This document shows positions 3,593 through 40,314 of a DNA stretch of 64,000 nt, in pieces (position 1 is the first letter of the stretch; each line of letters begins with the position of its first letter). The notes beneath the pieces are model-generated. The model was not told where the DNA came from. It saw nothing but the letters and a program-made list of their open reading frames with translations, and searched no databases. The DNA is from Desulfuromonadaceae bacterium (GTDB lineage: Bacteria > Desulfobacterota > Desulfuromonadia > Desulfuromonadales > JAHYIW01), in assembly GCA_019429445.1 (NCBI GenBank), contig JAHYIW010000009.1, positions 1 to 64,000 of the forward strand. Direction: 5' to 3'. The position numbers and the translations under genes are program-made.

Positions 3593-5575
3593 ATGTCGCA
3601 ACGCATTCTGATCGCCGAAGACAATCCGCATATCTGCACCGCGCTGAGTGCACTCTTGCAGCGTCGCGGCTTTGCGCCAGAAACCGTCGCCGATGGGGTG
3701 GCAGCACTGACGCGAATTGTTTCCTCCCCCCCCGATCTGCTCTTGCTCGACCTCAAGCTGCCACGTCTGCACGGCATCGATTTGCTTAAAAAACTGCGTG
3801 CAAGTCTGCGCACCAAAGATCTGCCAGTCATCGTCATGTCAGGGGTATATCAGGGTGACAAACACGTCCAGGCCGTGCGTTCACTCGGGGTCAGCCATTA
3901 TCTCGCAAAACCGTTCAAGCCGGAAGCCCTGCTCGCGGCGCTTGAGGCGATGCTCCCGGCTGCCACGCAGCCGGCACGCCCTTCAGTTTCTGGCGGCCGC
4001 AGCGGTCCGTCATTGGCGTTTGATCAACTGTTGATACAGGCCTGGCGACGCCGTTTTACCGGGCGCTGCGAGCTGACCACTGCGACCGGAAATCACCTGC
4101 TGATCTTTTGCGACGGCTTGCCGGTGGCGGTTCGCCCCGGCTTTGTCTGTCATGATCTTGGTGAGTATCTGTCTAAACGTAAGCTGGTGACCGAGGAAGA
4201 GTGCCGTTACTATCGCAGCGGTGGTGAAGGGCGGGGCGAGACATTCGTGCGCATGGGCTGCTTCGATGATATCGTCCTGGCGCGCGAGCAGTTCGGCTGG
4301 CTGGCGGAGGAGTTAACCGCCGGCTTCGGCCTGCCGCCGGGGCAGGTTAAACTGCAACCTCTCGCGCCCTTATCCGACTGGCGACCACCTGGGGTGGGCA
4401 TGGCACAGATCATCTATCATGGCTTCCACCGCCATGGCAGTGTTGCGGCGCGGCAGGAATTGCGACAACGTTTTGGCGCCGAGTATGTCGCCTTTGCGCC
4501 CGCCTATTTTCGGCATATCAACTTTTTAGATCTCAACGAGGAGGAACAGTCATTTATCGCGCGTGTCGACGGCAACCGGCGGCTCGATGAGTGTCTGGGT
4601 GACAGTGATAAATTGTTGCCCCTGCTGCAGACGCTGGTCGCGTTACAGATGCTCAACTTTGCCCCCTCTCCACTCGTTGCGGCGACAGCCGATTTTCCGG
4701 TGCGGCGTTTTTTCAATATCCCGGAGAGCGACGATCTTGATGGGGTTGAGGAAGCGACGCTGGTCAAATTTGATGATCTGGTCAGCGCCGCTGATGGCGA
4801 GGCAGATTTCGCGGCACCGCCGCCAATTACGCAACAGGCTGAAACAGCGACAGCGGATCTGGGGCAGCGGATTCGTGCCACCCATGCCGAATTTGAAGGG
4901 AAAAATTACTACGAAATATTCAAGTTGCGGCAGGGGGAATTCTCTTTTGACAAACTCAAGGAGCGTTATTTTGATTATACCCGCAGTTTCGGTCCAGAAG
5001 TGCTCATGCAGGTGGGGGGTGCCGAAGCGGTGCTGGTTGAAAAGATTCTCGATACCGTAACCACGGCCTATAACACCTTGTCCGACGTGGTCAAAAAGGA
5101 GCGCTACGACGAGATGCTCGGCTCCGAAAAGGTGGGGCTTGGCGAAGCGGGAGATGATCTTTTTCAGGCCCAGGTGCAATATCAGTCGGCCAAGGTTTTC
5201 CTGGAAATGGAAGAGTGGGATAACGCCGCCAGCGCCTTGCGCGACGCCATCAATCACGATCCGAAAAACGGGGAATACCAGGCGCATCTGGCCTGGGCAA
5301 TCTATCGTAACCCCAAAAACGCCAACAGCAAGGCGATGCTCGACAATGCGCGACAGATGCTCAATCGGGCGATTTCAAACCAGAAAACCGCCGACGGCTT
5401 TGCCTACAAGGGGTGGATTCTGTTTGAAAACGGGCAGGAGAACCTGGCTGAGGCGGAATTCAGCAAGGCACTGAAAATCACCCCCCGCCACACCCTCGCC
5501 CGCAACGGGTTGAAAACGCTGAATGAAAAACGCGAGCAGGATAATAAAGGCCTTTTCAAACGGATGTTTCGCTGA
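3593..5575 (+). CDS. Response regulator with DUF4388-, J-like and TPR domains
   Basis: A 660-residue modular protein. Residues 1-120 are a CheY-like receiver with phospho-acceptor D53 (LLLLDLKLP) and the conserved lysine in LAKPF. Residues about 140-300 resemble the DUF4388/PATAN-type module often found after receivers in deltaproteobacteria. Around residue 437 a J-domain-like segment begins with NYYEIFKL and ends with AYNTLSD and KKERYD, but the HPD triad that stimulates DnaK is absent, with GPE near that place. Residues about 520-650 form TPR repeats. No DNA-binding or enzymatic output is visible, so it probably works as a signal-dependent scaffold. Its partner is unknown. Confidence 0.8.
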   Translation: MSQRILIAEDNPHICTALSALLQRRGFAPETVADGVAALTRIVSSPPDLLLLDLKLPRLHGIDLLKKLRASLRTKDLPVIVMSGVYQGDKHVQAVRSLGVSHYLAKPFKPEALLAALEAMLPAATQPARPSVSGGRSGPSLAFDQLLIQAWRRRFTGRCELTTATGNHLLIFCDGLPVAVRPGFVCHDLGEYLSKRKLVTEEECRYYRSGGEGRGETFVRMGCFDDIVLAREQFGWLAEELTAGFGLPPGQVKLQPLAPLSDWRPPGVGMAQIIYHGFHRHGSVAARQELRQRFGAEYVAFAPAYFRHINFLDLNEEEQSFIARVDGNRRLDECLGDSDKLLPLLQTLVALQMLNFAPSPLVAATADFPVRRFFNIPESDDLDGVEEATLVKFDDLVSAADGEADFAAPPPITQQAETATADLGQRIRATHAEFEGKNYYEIFKLRQGEFSFDKLKERYFDYTRSFGPEVLMQVGGAEAVLVEKILDTVTTAYNTLSDVVKKERYDEMLGSEKVGLGEAGDDLFQAQVQYQSAKVFLEMEEWDNAASALRDAINHDPKNGEYQAHLAWAIYRNPKNANSKAMLDNARQMLNRAISNQKTADGFAYKGWILFENGQENLAEAEFSKALKITPRHTLARNGLKTLNEKREQDNKGLFKRMFR

Positions 5576-20696: not shown

Positions 20697-20846
20697 GATG
20701 CACTCGCAAAAACTCAAAGGGTGGCTAAGCAAAAATTTCGTCCTCCAAGGCTTGGTGGTTTTTCAGGGGCGAAGGCCTGCATCAGGTAGGTCGAGGTCCT
20801 GAAAAACCAGCGTAACGCAGTAGCGCGGACTTTTTGCGACGCCATC
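20697..20846 (+). mobile_element. 150-bp MITE-like element, copy A
   Basis: Ends GATGCACTCGCAAAAACTC and, inverted, GATGGCGTCGCAAAAAGTC agree at 15 of 19 bases. An internal 12-bp inverted repeat TGGTTTTTCAGG/CCTGAAAAACCA (20756-20767, 20798-20809) can fold into a hairpin. The direct repeat ATCCTCTTTT brackets it. No coding capacity. Confidence 0.8.
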
Positions 20847-21109
20847 CTCTTTTAGCAGATTTCAGGAGGGAGCTAAAGGGTTTTTCAGAAAAGAGGGGGC
20901 CTTTTTTAAAACAAATGCCCCCCAGTGAACAACGGTCAGCAGTCACCCGGCAAATAAACCGCGACCTGACCGAGATTGAACAGAAGGAAACGGTTATGCT
21001 GTCGACCCACAATCCTTTCCCAAGGTGCCTCTTGCATAGTCCTGGCGAATCGGGGATAATTTACGCGATGCAACAGAATGATTGCTGCCAACATTTTAAG
21101 GAAATACCC

Positions 21110-21334
21110 ATGAAGCAAACAAAATTGTTCGTCAGTCTGATCCTGCTTGGTGTGGTGCTGCTCTTCGTTATGCAGAATCTCGCCGCCGTCGAACTGACAT
21201 TTCTTGTGTGGAGCGTTTCGCTCTCGCAGGCCCTGCTGCTTTTGCTTGTCTTCGTTTGCGGCCTGACCATCGGTGTCCTCTTGACCACCCTGGCCGGACG
21301 CAAAACAAAGAATACGCCGCCGGATAAATACTGA
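21110..21334 (+). CDS. lapA: LapA/DUF1049-like small membrane protein
   Basis: A 74-residue protein with two hydrophobic segments (about 5-22 and 38-62) separated by the motif QNLAAVELTFLVWSVSL, the LapA/DUF1049 signature. LapA in enterics works with LapB in lipopolysaccharide assembly; no lapB lies beside it here. AAGGA upstream supports the start at 21110. An in-frame extension back to 20834 exists but would run through a repeat-flanked region and has no support. Confidence 0.82.
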   Translation: MKQTKLFVSLILLGVVLLFVMQNLAAVELTFLVWSVSLSQALLLLLVFVCGLTIGVLLTTLAGRKTKNTPPDKY

Positions 21335-21429
21335 AACATTGCAACCGGACAGGAATGCAGCCCAGTCCGGGTTCCCGCTGGGCCCTTACCAACTGTGCTA
21401 AATCAATATCCACTCCGGGGAGAACTGTC

Positions 21430-21714
21430 ATGCTCCAGGCCGATCAAGCCCGAACCTTTCGTGCTTTTTACGATTCCGCCCGCGCCGCCGGGCTCGATGT
21501 CAAAACCACCACACTGGTCGGTCTGGCGGCAGCCTTGACCGCCGGGTGCTTTCCCTGAGTGGAGCACTACCTTGGCGTGGCCAGGGACAACGGGATTACC
21601 GAGCAGGAAATCAGCGCCGTGCAGGCGCTGGCCATGGCGGTCTCCGCCGGGCGCATCAACGCGCAGATGCGGGAGATCGAAACCCACCTGAAGGAAAAAA
21701 CAGGCAACCCATGA
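21430..21714 (+). CDS. AhpD/CMD-like selenoprotein with CxxU motif
   Basis: A 94-residue carboxymuconolactone-decarboxylase/AhpD-like protein. The reading frame contains a TGA at 21556-21558 (codon 43), exactly where the second cysteine of the AhpD CxxC redox motif is expected: AAALTAGCFPU, then VEHYLGVARDNGITEQEI, the usual helix after the motif. Homology and coding pattern continue without a shift to the stop at 21712. A SECIS-like hairpin starts 11 nt after the TGA. This argues for selenocysteine rather than a nonsense mutation. It likely acts in peroxide or thiol redox chemistry. GGGGAG precedes the ATG. It overlaps the next ORF by ATGA. Confidence 0.85.
21570..21586 (+). promoter_or_regulatory. 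SECIS-like hairpin
   Basis: CCTTGGCGTGGCCAGGG begins 11 nt after the UGA. It can pair CCU/AGG and GGC/GCC around a bulged U with a GUG loop. The distance, the bulged U and a loop containing GU match the E. coli fdhF SECIS element that SelB binds. Confidence 0.7.
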
Positions 21715-21833
21715 ACACGGGTCAGAGATTCACCGTGCGCGACACATTTTCCCGTGCCGGTGCCCGCGATGGCGAACCGCTCGCGACCGTTACCGGCACT
21801 GTTTATCGCAAGAAGAAACGCCATCCGGGATGA
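21711..21833 (+). CDS. 40-residue basic ORF, translationally coupled
   Basis: Starts within the stop of the selenoprotein gene (ATGA at 21711) and ends within the start of the Nudix gene (ATGA at 21830), so it is linked on both sides. It encodes 40 residues ending in a basic patch YRKKKRHPG. No homolog is recognised. The tight double overlap supports real translation, at least as a coupling leader. Confidence 0.6.
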   Translation: MNTGQRFTVRDTFSRAGARDGEPLATVTGTVYRKKKRHPG

Positions 21834-22357
21834 GCATCGATGTCCGTGCCATCCGTTACTGTCCGCGCTGCACCTCGGCAAACTACACGTTTCTCGATGA
21901 CCGCCGCTGGCGCTGCGCGGCCTGTGACCTGGTCTACTACCACAATATCGCCGCCGCCTGCGCGGTCATCCTCACCCGCGGCGACCAACTTCTGCTGACC
22001 TTGCGCAAAAGCGATCCCGGCGCGGGACTGCTCGATCTTCCGGGCGGCTTTGTCGACCCCGACGAAAGCGTCGAGGCAGCGATCATCCGCGAAGTTCACG
22101 AAGAGCTCGGCATGGTCATCGATACCCCGCGTTATTGCGCCTCTTATCAGAATCGTTATTACTATCGTGAAATCGAATACCGCACCCTTGATTTGATCTT
22201 CACCGCCAGCGTGCCAGAAGACACCGTACCGGTTGCGGCGGACGATGTCGCAGAGGTTGTCCTGGTCAGGCCCGAGGATATCGATTTCGAGAAGATCGCT
22301 TTCGCGTCAATTCGGCAGGCATTGCAAGATTTTCGGGGAGATAAATTCCGTCATTAA
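21830..22357 (+). CDS. Nudix hydrolase with N-terminal zinc ribbon
   Basis: A 175-residue protein. A zinc ribbon (CPRCTSANY ... CAACDL, residues 11-37) precedes a Nudix domain with the full box, from GGFVDPDESVEAAIIREV to HEELGM. The arrangement resembles NADH pyrophosphatase but is shorter and lacks the SQPWPFP motif, so the substrate is open; NAD(H) or ADP-ribose type dinucleotides are plausible. It is the third gene of the selenoprotein operon. Its stop lies in TCATTAATGA, the target site of MITE copy B. Confidence 0.88.
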   Translation: MSIDVRAIRYCPRCTSANYTFLDDRRWRCAACDLVYYHNIAAACAVILTRGDQLLLTLRKSDPGAGLLDLPGGFVDPDESVEAAIIREVHEELGMVIDTPRYCASYQNRYYYREIEYRTLDLIFTASVPEDTVPVAADDVAEVVLVRPEDIDFEKIAFASIRQALQDFRGDKFRH

Positions 22358-22358
22358 T

Positions 22359-22508
22359 GATGGCGTCGCAAAAAGTCCGCCCTACGTCGTTACGCTGATT
22401 TTTCAGGACCTCGACCTACCTGATGTAGGCCTTCGCCCCTCAAAAACCACCAAGCCTTGGAGGACGAAATTTTTGCTTAGCCATCTCATTCTTTTTTGTG
22501 AGTGCATC
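22359..22508 (-). mobile_element. 150-bp MITE-like element, copy B
   Basis: The same element in reverse orientation between the convergent Nudix and uvrC genes. TCATTAATGA occurs at both ends (22351-22360 and 22507-22516). Each copy of that decamer supplies the TAA stop of one flanking gene. Confidence 0.8.
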
Positions 22509-24508: not shown

Positions 24509-24658
24509 GTTGCACTCGCAAAAAAGAATTAAGTGGCTAAGCAAAAATTTCGTTCTACAAGGCTTGGTGGTTTTTCAGGGGCGAAGGCCTACATCAGGTA
24601 GGTCGAGGTCCTGAAAAACCAGCGTAACGCCGTAGGGCGGACTTTTTGCGACGCCATC
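24509..24658 (+). mobile_element. 150-bp MITE-like element, copy C
   Basis: The same orientation as copy A, with TCAAACTAT repeated at both borders. It ends 32 bp before the start of the exported protein gene, so it lies within that gene's leader or promoter. Confidence 0.8.
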
Positions 24659-40164: not shown

Positions 40165-40314
40165 GATGGCGTCGCAAAAAGTCCGCCCTACTGCGTTACG
40201 CCGGTTTTTCAGGACCTCGACCTACCTGATGTAGGCCTTCGTCCCTGAAAAACCACCAGGCCTTGGAGGACGAAATTTTTGCTTAGCCATCCCATGAGTT
40301 TTTGCGAGTGCATC
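40165..40314 (-). mobile_element. 150-bp MITE-like element, copy D
   Basis: The reverse orientation, as copy B. AAATAT occurs at both borders, a weaker duplication than at the other copies. It lies between the divergent panE and carD genes and ends 33 bp upstream of the carD -35 box. Confidence 0.8.

Follow-up and report, generated by a model that had tools for sequence, protein, structure and literature searches.

With a probability of about 95%, the window, the whole 64,000-nucleotide stretch of DNA analysed here, carries a genuine selenoprotein gene of the AhpD/CMD kind, in which a UGA is read as selenocysteine. We take the gene to be real because its UGA, the hairpin that follows and the protein itself are conserved in dozens of related bacteria. 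The organism's own SelA and SelD would make Sec-tRNA-Sec, and SelB loaded with it would bind the hairpin, so that the ribosome inserts selenocysteine at the UGA. The product would be an all-helical protein of the CMD fold, with a helix that carries the C-x-P-U pair at its N-terminus. The features of the locus are given in Table 1.

Table 1. Features of the selenoprotein locus and its neighbours, in coordinates of the window.
Feature	Position	Strand	Evidence or remark
LapA-domain small membrane protein, 74 aa, upstream neighbour	21110..21334	+	Pfam LapA_dom, 35.4 bits; same place in congener G104
Shine-Dalgarno-like GGGGAG	21421..21426	+	Direct sequence reading
AhpD/CMD-like selenoprotein gene, 94 aa	21430..21714	+	Start ATG 21430, stop TGA 21712-21714; translation, Pfam CMD, homologs, pN/pS
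In-frame UGA, Sec43, motif C40-F-P-U43	21556..21558	+	TGA in 44/45 close homologs of the order; TGC (Cys) in Geobacterales orthologs
Putative bacterial SECIS hairpin, CCUUGGC-GUG-GCCAGGG	21570..21586	+	Loop starts 18 nt after UGA; MFE -9.4 kcal/mol; covariation
40-aa ORF, ATG overlaps selenoprotein stop (ATGA)	21711..21833	+	82% identical ORF in G104
NUDIX hydrolase, start overlaps stop of 40-aa ORF (ATGA)	21830..22357	+	Pfam NUDIX, 70 bits; 94% identical in G104

Translation of the frame meets a single internal TGA, at codon 43, ahead of the final one, and with Sec43 the product reads MLQADQARTFRAFYDSARAAGLDVKTTTLVGLAAALTAGCFPUVEHYLGVARDNGITEQEISAVQALAMAVSAGRINAQMREIETHLKEKTGNP. The Pfam CMD model (PF02627) aligns to residues 7-73 of these 94 at 45.4 bits, above its cut-off of 23, and the domain thus spans the UGA. 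An earlier note, made from the letters of this DNA alone, had placed the UGA at the second cysteine position of the CxxC motif and had seen family-like sequence going on in frame to 21712; both observations hold, given the C40-F-P-U43 motif, the cysteine found there in Geobacterales orthologs, the domain match and the selection described below. It had also foreseen a standard gene caller reporting a truncated ORF of 42 residues and missing the rest. By the standard code the frame does stop at the UGA, but the ORF reported could have 67 residues, as an alternative start at 21355 lies in the same frame under table 11. We favour the ATG at 21430 on account of the homologs and of the Shine-Dalgarno-like sequence before it.

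Close homologs were found in 45 of the 136 genomes of the order, a count that leaves out weaker matches belonging to other AhpD subfamilies. Codon 43 is TGA in 44 of them, from at least six families, and TTA in the remaining one (G132); the frame has no other stops. C40, P42, Y47 and several further positions are invariant in the family alignment. Pooled pN/pS was 0.38 upstream of the UGA and 0.35 downstream of the hairpin, against 1.34 and 1.50 in the two shifted frames; the part after the UGA is thus under purifying selection, and in this frame only. To judge from the sequences, this pattern rules out both a simple stop and gene decay. Were the UGA a true stop, the product would be a peptide of 42 residues, or the gene would be broken and its downstream similarity a remnant of an intact ancestor. 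We give that reading hardly any credence: the standard code does end the frame at the UGA, and a broken copy is known from one relative, G124, with a 147-bp repeat lodged at the UGA, but homologs mostly only 44-63% identical to the window protein share the codon, and a stop at the same codon across so many families is not expected of a decaying gene. The homologs run past the UGA; that all of them might end there was an outcome which the earlier note had named as counting against a selenoprotein.

In G132 the TTA (Leu) codon, at L046 1597-1599, is accompanied by an intact SECIS-type hairpin. Either selenocysteine was lost there recently, and is dispensable in that organism, or the assembly is in error. 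A selA gene is present in 42 of the 45 genomes with a homolog; the three without it (G064, G071, G074) are draft metagenome assemblies, 70-96% complete.

The genome of the window (2.9 Mb in 64 contigs, 99.99% complete) was searched for the Sec machinery with profiles. The searches gave selA (596 bits, cut-off 268), selB (381 bits, cut-off 242) and selD (361 bits, cut-off 125), which form one cluster on contig C2, all above their curated cut-offs. A tRNA-Sec (76 bits, cut-off 47) lies on contig C27, and ARAGORN likewise calls it tRNA-SeC with anticodon TCA. The check for selA, selB, selC and selD that had been proposed thus found all of them. The SelD gene of this genome (L012, C2 129823-130746, minus strand) has one in-frame TGA, and its product, selenophosphate synthetase, is probably itself a selenoprotein. 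The sole other CMD gene of the genome (L002, contig C11, 1339-1866, minus strand) codes for 175 aa and has an in-frame TGA in a CPFU motif; a GC-rich hairpin can be made out by eye 3' of the UGA, and this gene too probably encodes a selenoprotein.

Bacterial SECIS elements have been described as having a stem of 4-16 bp and a loop of 3-9 nt with a G in its first two places, 16-37 nt from the UGA, with an MFE of -7.5 or lower (PMC13188914). The hairpin of the window, with 7 bp, loop GUG, a spacing of 18 nt and an MFE of -9.4 kcal/mol, falls within these limits. A 7-bp stem with loop GU[GCU] can be formed 3' of the UGA in every homolog, and 99.7% of the cells are paired across 43 distinct sequences. 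Of the seven pairs, three have changed on both sides (0.7 on average after shuffling). The covariation score is higher than in any of the 500 shuffles, a control in which relatedness stays, and higher than in all slid controls; sliding the columns by 1-3, a control that removes relatedness, cuts pairing to 21-61%. Codon use in the hairpin is uniform as well: Leu is CTT in 42/45 and Arg is AGG in 32/32, compared with 12% and 5% in the downstream neighbour genes, and pS in the hairpin codons is half the value of the flanks. Single-sequence folding of a 45-nt stretch gave z -1.7, which is not decisive, and the case for a SECIS therefore rests on covariation and codon use. The 7-bp stem accommodates all variants and was preferred to a fold in which a U is bulged out. 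An Rfam search of 21000-22400 returned no known RNA family, only chance matches.

The subfamily is also found in 14 of the 141 Geobacterales genomes, in both Sec and Cys forms. Ten Cys orthologs (CxPC, codon TGC; G256, G249, G245, G250, G252, G183, G235, G149, G200, G141) have 1-5 of the 7 hairpin pairs left, with an MFE of 0 to -3.1; five Sec sequences (two genes in G155, and G206, G187 and G185) keep 6-7 pairs, with an MFE of -6.8 to -9.7. They are true orthologs with Cys in place of U, as an alignment was expected to reveal. On a tree of few columns and unfixed root, the Cys forms make one clade nested among the Sec forms (support 94/84). Most simply, Sec would be ancestral and the Cys clade derived, its hairpin having decayed once it was no longer needed.

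Recoding of the UGA without selenium, by near-cognate readthrough (Trp, Cys or Arg) or by codon reassignment, would likewise give a full-length protein, and the existence of Cys orthologs agrees with it. Still, UGA is an ordinary stop elsewhere in the window (the 40-aa ORF terminates at a TGA that overlaps the NUDIX start), the genome has the complete Sec machinery, the gene has a covarying hairpin of the SECIS type, and this hairpin vanishes exactly where the codon turns to Cys; such recoding is very improbable.

Selenoproteins with a CxxU motif in a CMD/AhpD-like domain have been published as 'CMD domain-containing protein' in 2005 (PMC1088965) and 'AhpD-like 2' in 2008 (PMC2398784), and 'CMD-like protein PF02627 CxxU' is tabulated in a 2026 review (PMC13188914), so that the earlier note was right in calling the kind already reported. 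Like these, the window protein has the Pfam domain, the CxxU motif and a bacterial SECIS after the UGA. The published entries come from marine metagenomes and are given without context, whereas the subfamily of the window is a defined one, of 90-100 aa, with CxPU, in conserved operons of Desulfuromonadales-type bacteria. The GSU3128 family (NF041047), a distant AhpD homolog of Geobacter, is likewise a short stand-alone AhpD-like selenoprotein with CxxU and also occurs in this order; however, the window protein reaches 34 bits, the cut-off being 110, the motif is CPDU where the window family has CxPU, and neighbours and hairpin sequence differ. The best-scoring AhpD domains of NCBIfam (57-60 bits) are those of ArsM_AhpD_UU (NF041537) and MduS (NF045649). 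These share CxxU but are methyltransferase-AhpD fusions of about 340 aa with cut-offs of 510 and 380, and the window protein corresponds to the AhpD part alone. Its matches to the MduS, ArsM_AhpD_UU and GSU3128 models of NCBIfam are all below threshold, and at these cut-offs no member of the 40-sequence family alignment was reported (per-member values are E-values). The gene therefore represents a new subfamily of a known selenoprotein kind, set apart from the published CxxU entries by their descriptions. The novelty lies in a defined subfamily that has no name in NCBIfam, in the three contexts conserved around it and in a replacement of Sec by Cys with loss of the hairpin.

An AlphaFold2 model with Cys in place of Sec has four helices (pLDDT 90.4), the third of which begins with the CxPU pair. 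The nearest solved folds are RclX (7y4r), 3bey and TM1620 (1vke), with a TM-score on the query of 0.79 for RclX and 3bey; all three have CxxC, with Cys where the window protein has Sec. AhpD of Mycobacterium tuberculosis (1gu9, 1knc) has the same broad fold and CxxC, but its structural match is weak (E > 1). In AhpD, a proton relay is formed by a Glu, 12 residues ahead of the first Cys, and a His, 4 residues past the second. The window family keeps the CxxC/CxxU pair of AhpD as C40-x-P-U43, with C40 and P42 invariant, but not the Glu/His relay of the M. tuberculosis protein: at the positions of the 1vke Glu and His, residue 28 is variable (T/I/A/V) and residue 47 (+4) is an invariant Tyr in place of the His retained by 1vke and 3bey. 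The Cys forms also have no relay, and its loss is therefore not due to Sec. The label 'AhpD-like' is thus apt for the fold and the CxxU motif, but peroxidase activity should not be assumed from it.

Because the relay of AhpD is replaced, our best guess, and one we hold with some preference, is that the protein is a small thiol/selenol oxidoreductase. Sec43 would attack a disulfide, a peroxide or a similar electrophile, resolution by Cys40 would give a selenenylsulfide, and a thiol reductant of the cell would reset the pair. A canonical AhpD alkyl hydroperoxidase, acting as a peroxidase or as AhpC reductant through a Glu/His relay, is possible but rather unlikely. It would fit the shared fold family, the structural neighbour RclX, which shields Pseudomonas from HOCl and HOSCN (PMC7950407), and the nearness in relatives of hslO, which codes for the oxidation-activated chaperone Hsp33. 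Against it stand the variable residue and the invariant Tyr at the relay positions, the AhpD core model TIGR00778, the best of its kind in NCBIfam, at 16.9 bits (below its cut-off of 27.8), and the fact that ahpC was seen adjacent in none of the three conserved contexts.

The order LapA, selenoprotein, 40-aa ORF and NUDIX hydrolase is identical in the congener G104, and the overlapping ATGA starts suggest that the last three are co-translated in this genus. The 40-aa ORF has no Pfam or NCBIfam match, and a scan of 20850-22420 found no sigma-70 promoter. A dispersed 147-bp repeat, which looks like a MITE-type element, occurs in the window at 20700-20850 (+), 22359-22505 (-), 24512-24658 (+) and 40165-40311 (-), the copies being 90-95% alike, and the genome holds further ones outside the window. 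The operon lies between two inverted copies, which the congener lacks at this place; the idea that these repeats had carried the operon was rejected, as G104 has the identical gene order without them. In the interrupted copy of G124 (L133, about 4125-4290), the inserted repeat is of the same 147-bp type (84% identical), sits right at the UGA and is flanked on both sides by a 9-bp duplication, CAACCGTGA.

Among relatives, the gene is followed by selA in 18 genomes and by hslO (Hsp33) in about 23 (22 by pattern, and G085 by reading; a Sec form ahead of hslO, L114, belongs to the cultured strain Malonomonas rubra DSM 5091), and hgcA-hgcB lies directly upstream in nine Geobacterales genomes (3 Sec and 6 Cys forms); these counts are of related genomes and not of independent events, and the tree requires at least ten context changes. 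The hgcAB-linked loci are L172, L173, L174, L175, L176 and L177 (Cys) and L170, L171 and L180 (Sec), where a MarR-type regulator often lies upstream. In L110, scores above the NCBIfam cut-off confirm both HgcA and HgcB. The genome of the window has an hgcA of its own (C18, 65867-66844, minus strand), also above the NCBIfam cut-off, and its organism is predicted to be a mercury methylator. Two papers report arsR, marR and ars genes near hgcAB (PMC10349881, PMC7438021), and a search of passages in them turned up no mention of an AhpD-like gene there. A limited literature search, covering papers outside subscription, found no report pairing hgcAB with AhpD/carboxymuconolactone decarboxylase, or Hsp33 with selenoproteins.

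The protein might instead be a selenol that handles metals or organometals, supplying or removing a soft metal or methyl-metal for HgcAB or for arsenic enzymes, which we regard as distinctly doubtful. Sec and Cys orthologs do lie 40-60 nt behind hgcB in the nine Geobacterales genomes, the nearest NCBIfam matches are to AhpD domains in fusions with arsenite methyltransferase or MduS, an ArsP-type permease is upstream of a Sec homolog in a Neomarinimicrobiota genome, and selenoprotein forms of HgcA and HgcB occur elsewhere (PMC13188914). However, the gene is away from hgcA in most relatives and in its own genome (contig C9, with hgcA on C18), and while only 14 of 141 Geobacterales genomes have it, hgcA is in about 95.

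Returning to the thiol/selenol oxidoreductase, we offer as a tentative and on balance unlikely extension that it is dedicated to the selenium and methyl-metal machinery, being in Geobacterales a third, so far unnamed, HgcAB component. This proposal comes from the gene being kept directly ahead of selA in one group and of the redox chaperone gene hslO in a second, and, in Geobacterales, right after hgcAB as a Sec or a Cys form. As an HgcAB component the protein could, for example, keep the corrinoid/ferredoxin pair or the metal substrate reduced and thiol-bound.

Since the NCBIfam models miss the subfamily at their cut-offs, existing annotations probably cut the gene off or miss it. The Sec and Cys orthologs, the latter having lost the hairpin, offer a clean natural experiment in the replacement of Sec by Cys. 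It is the links with hgcAB and selA that deserve to be followed; should the one with hgcAB prove functional, the protein would be a new candidate component of the HgcAB system.
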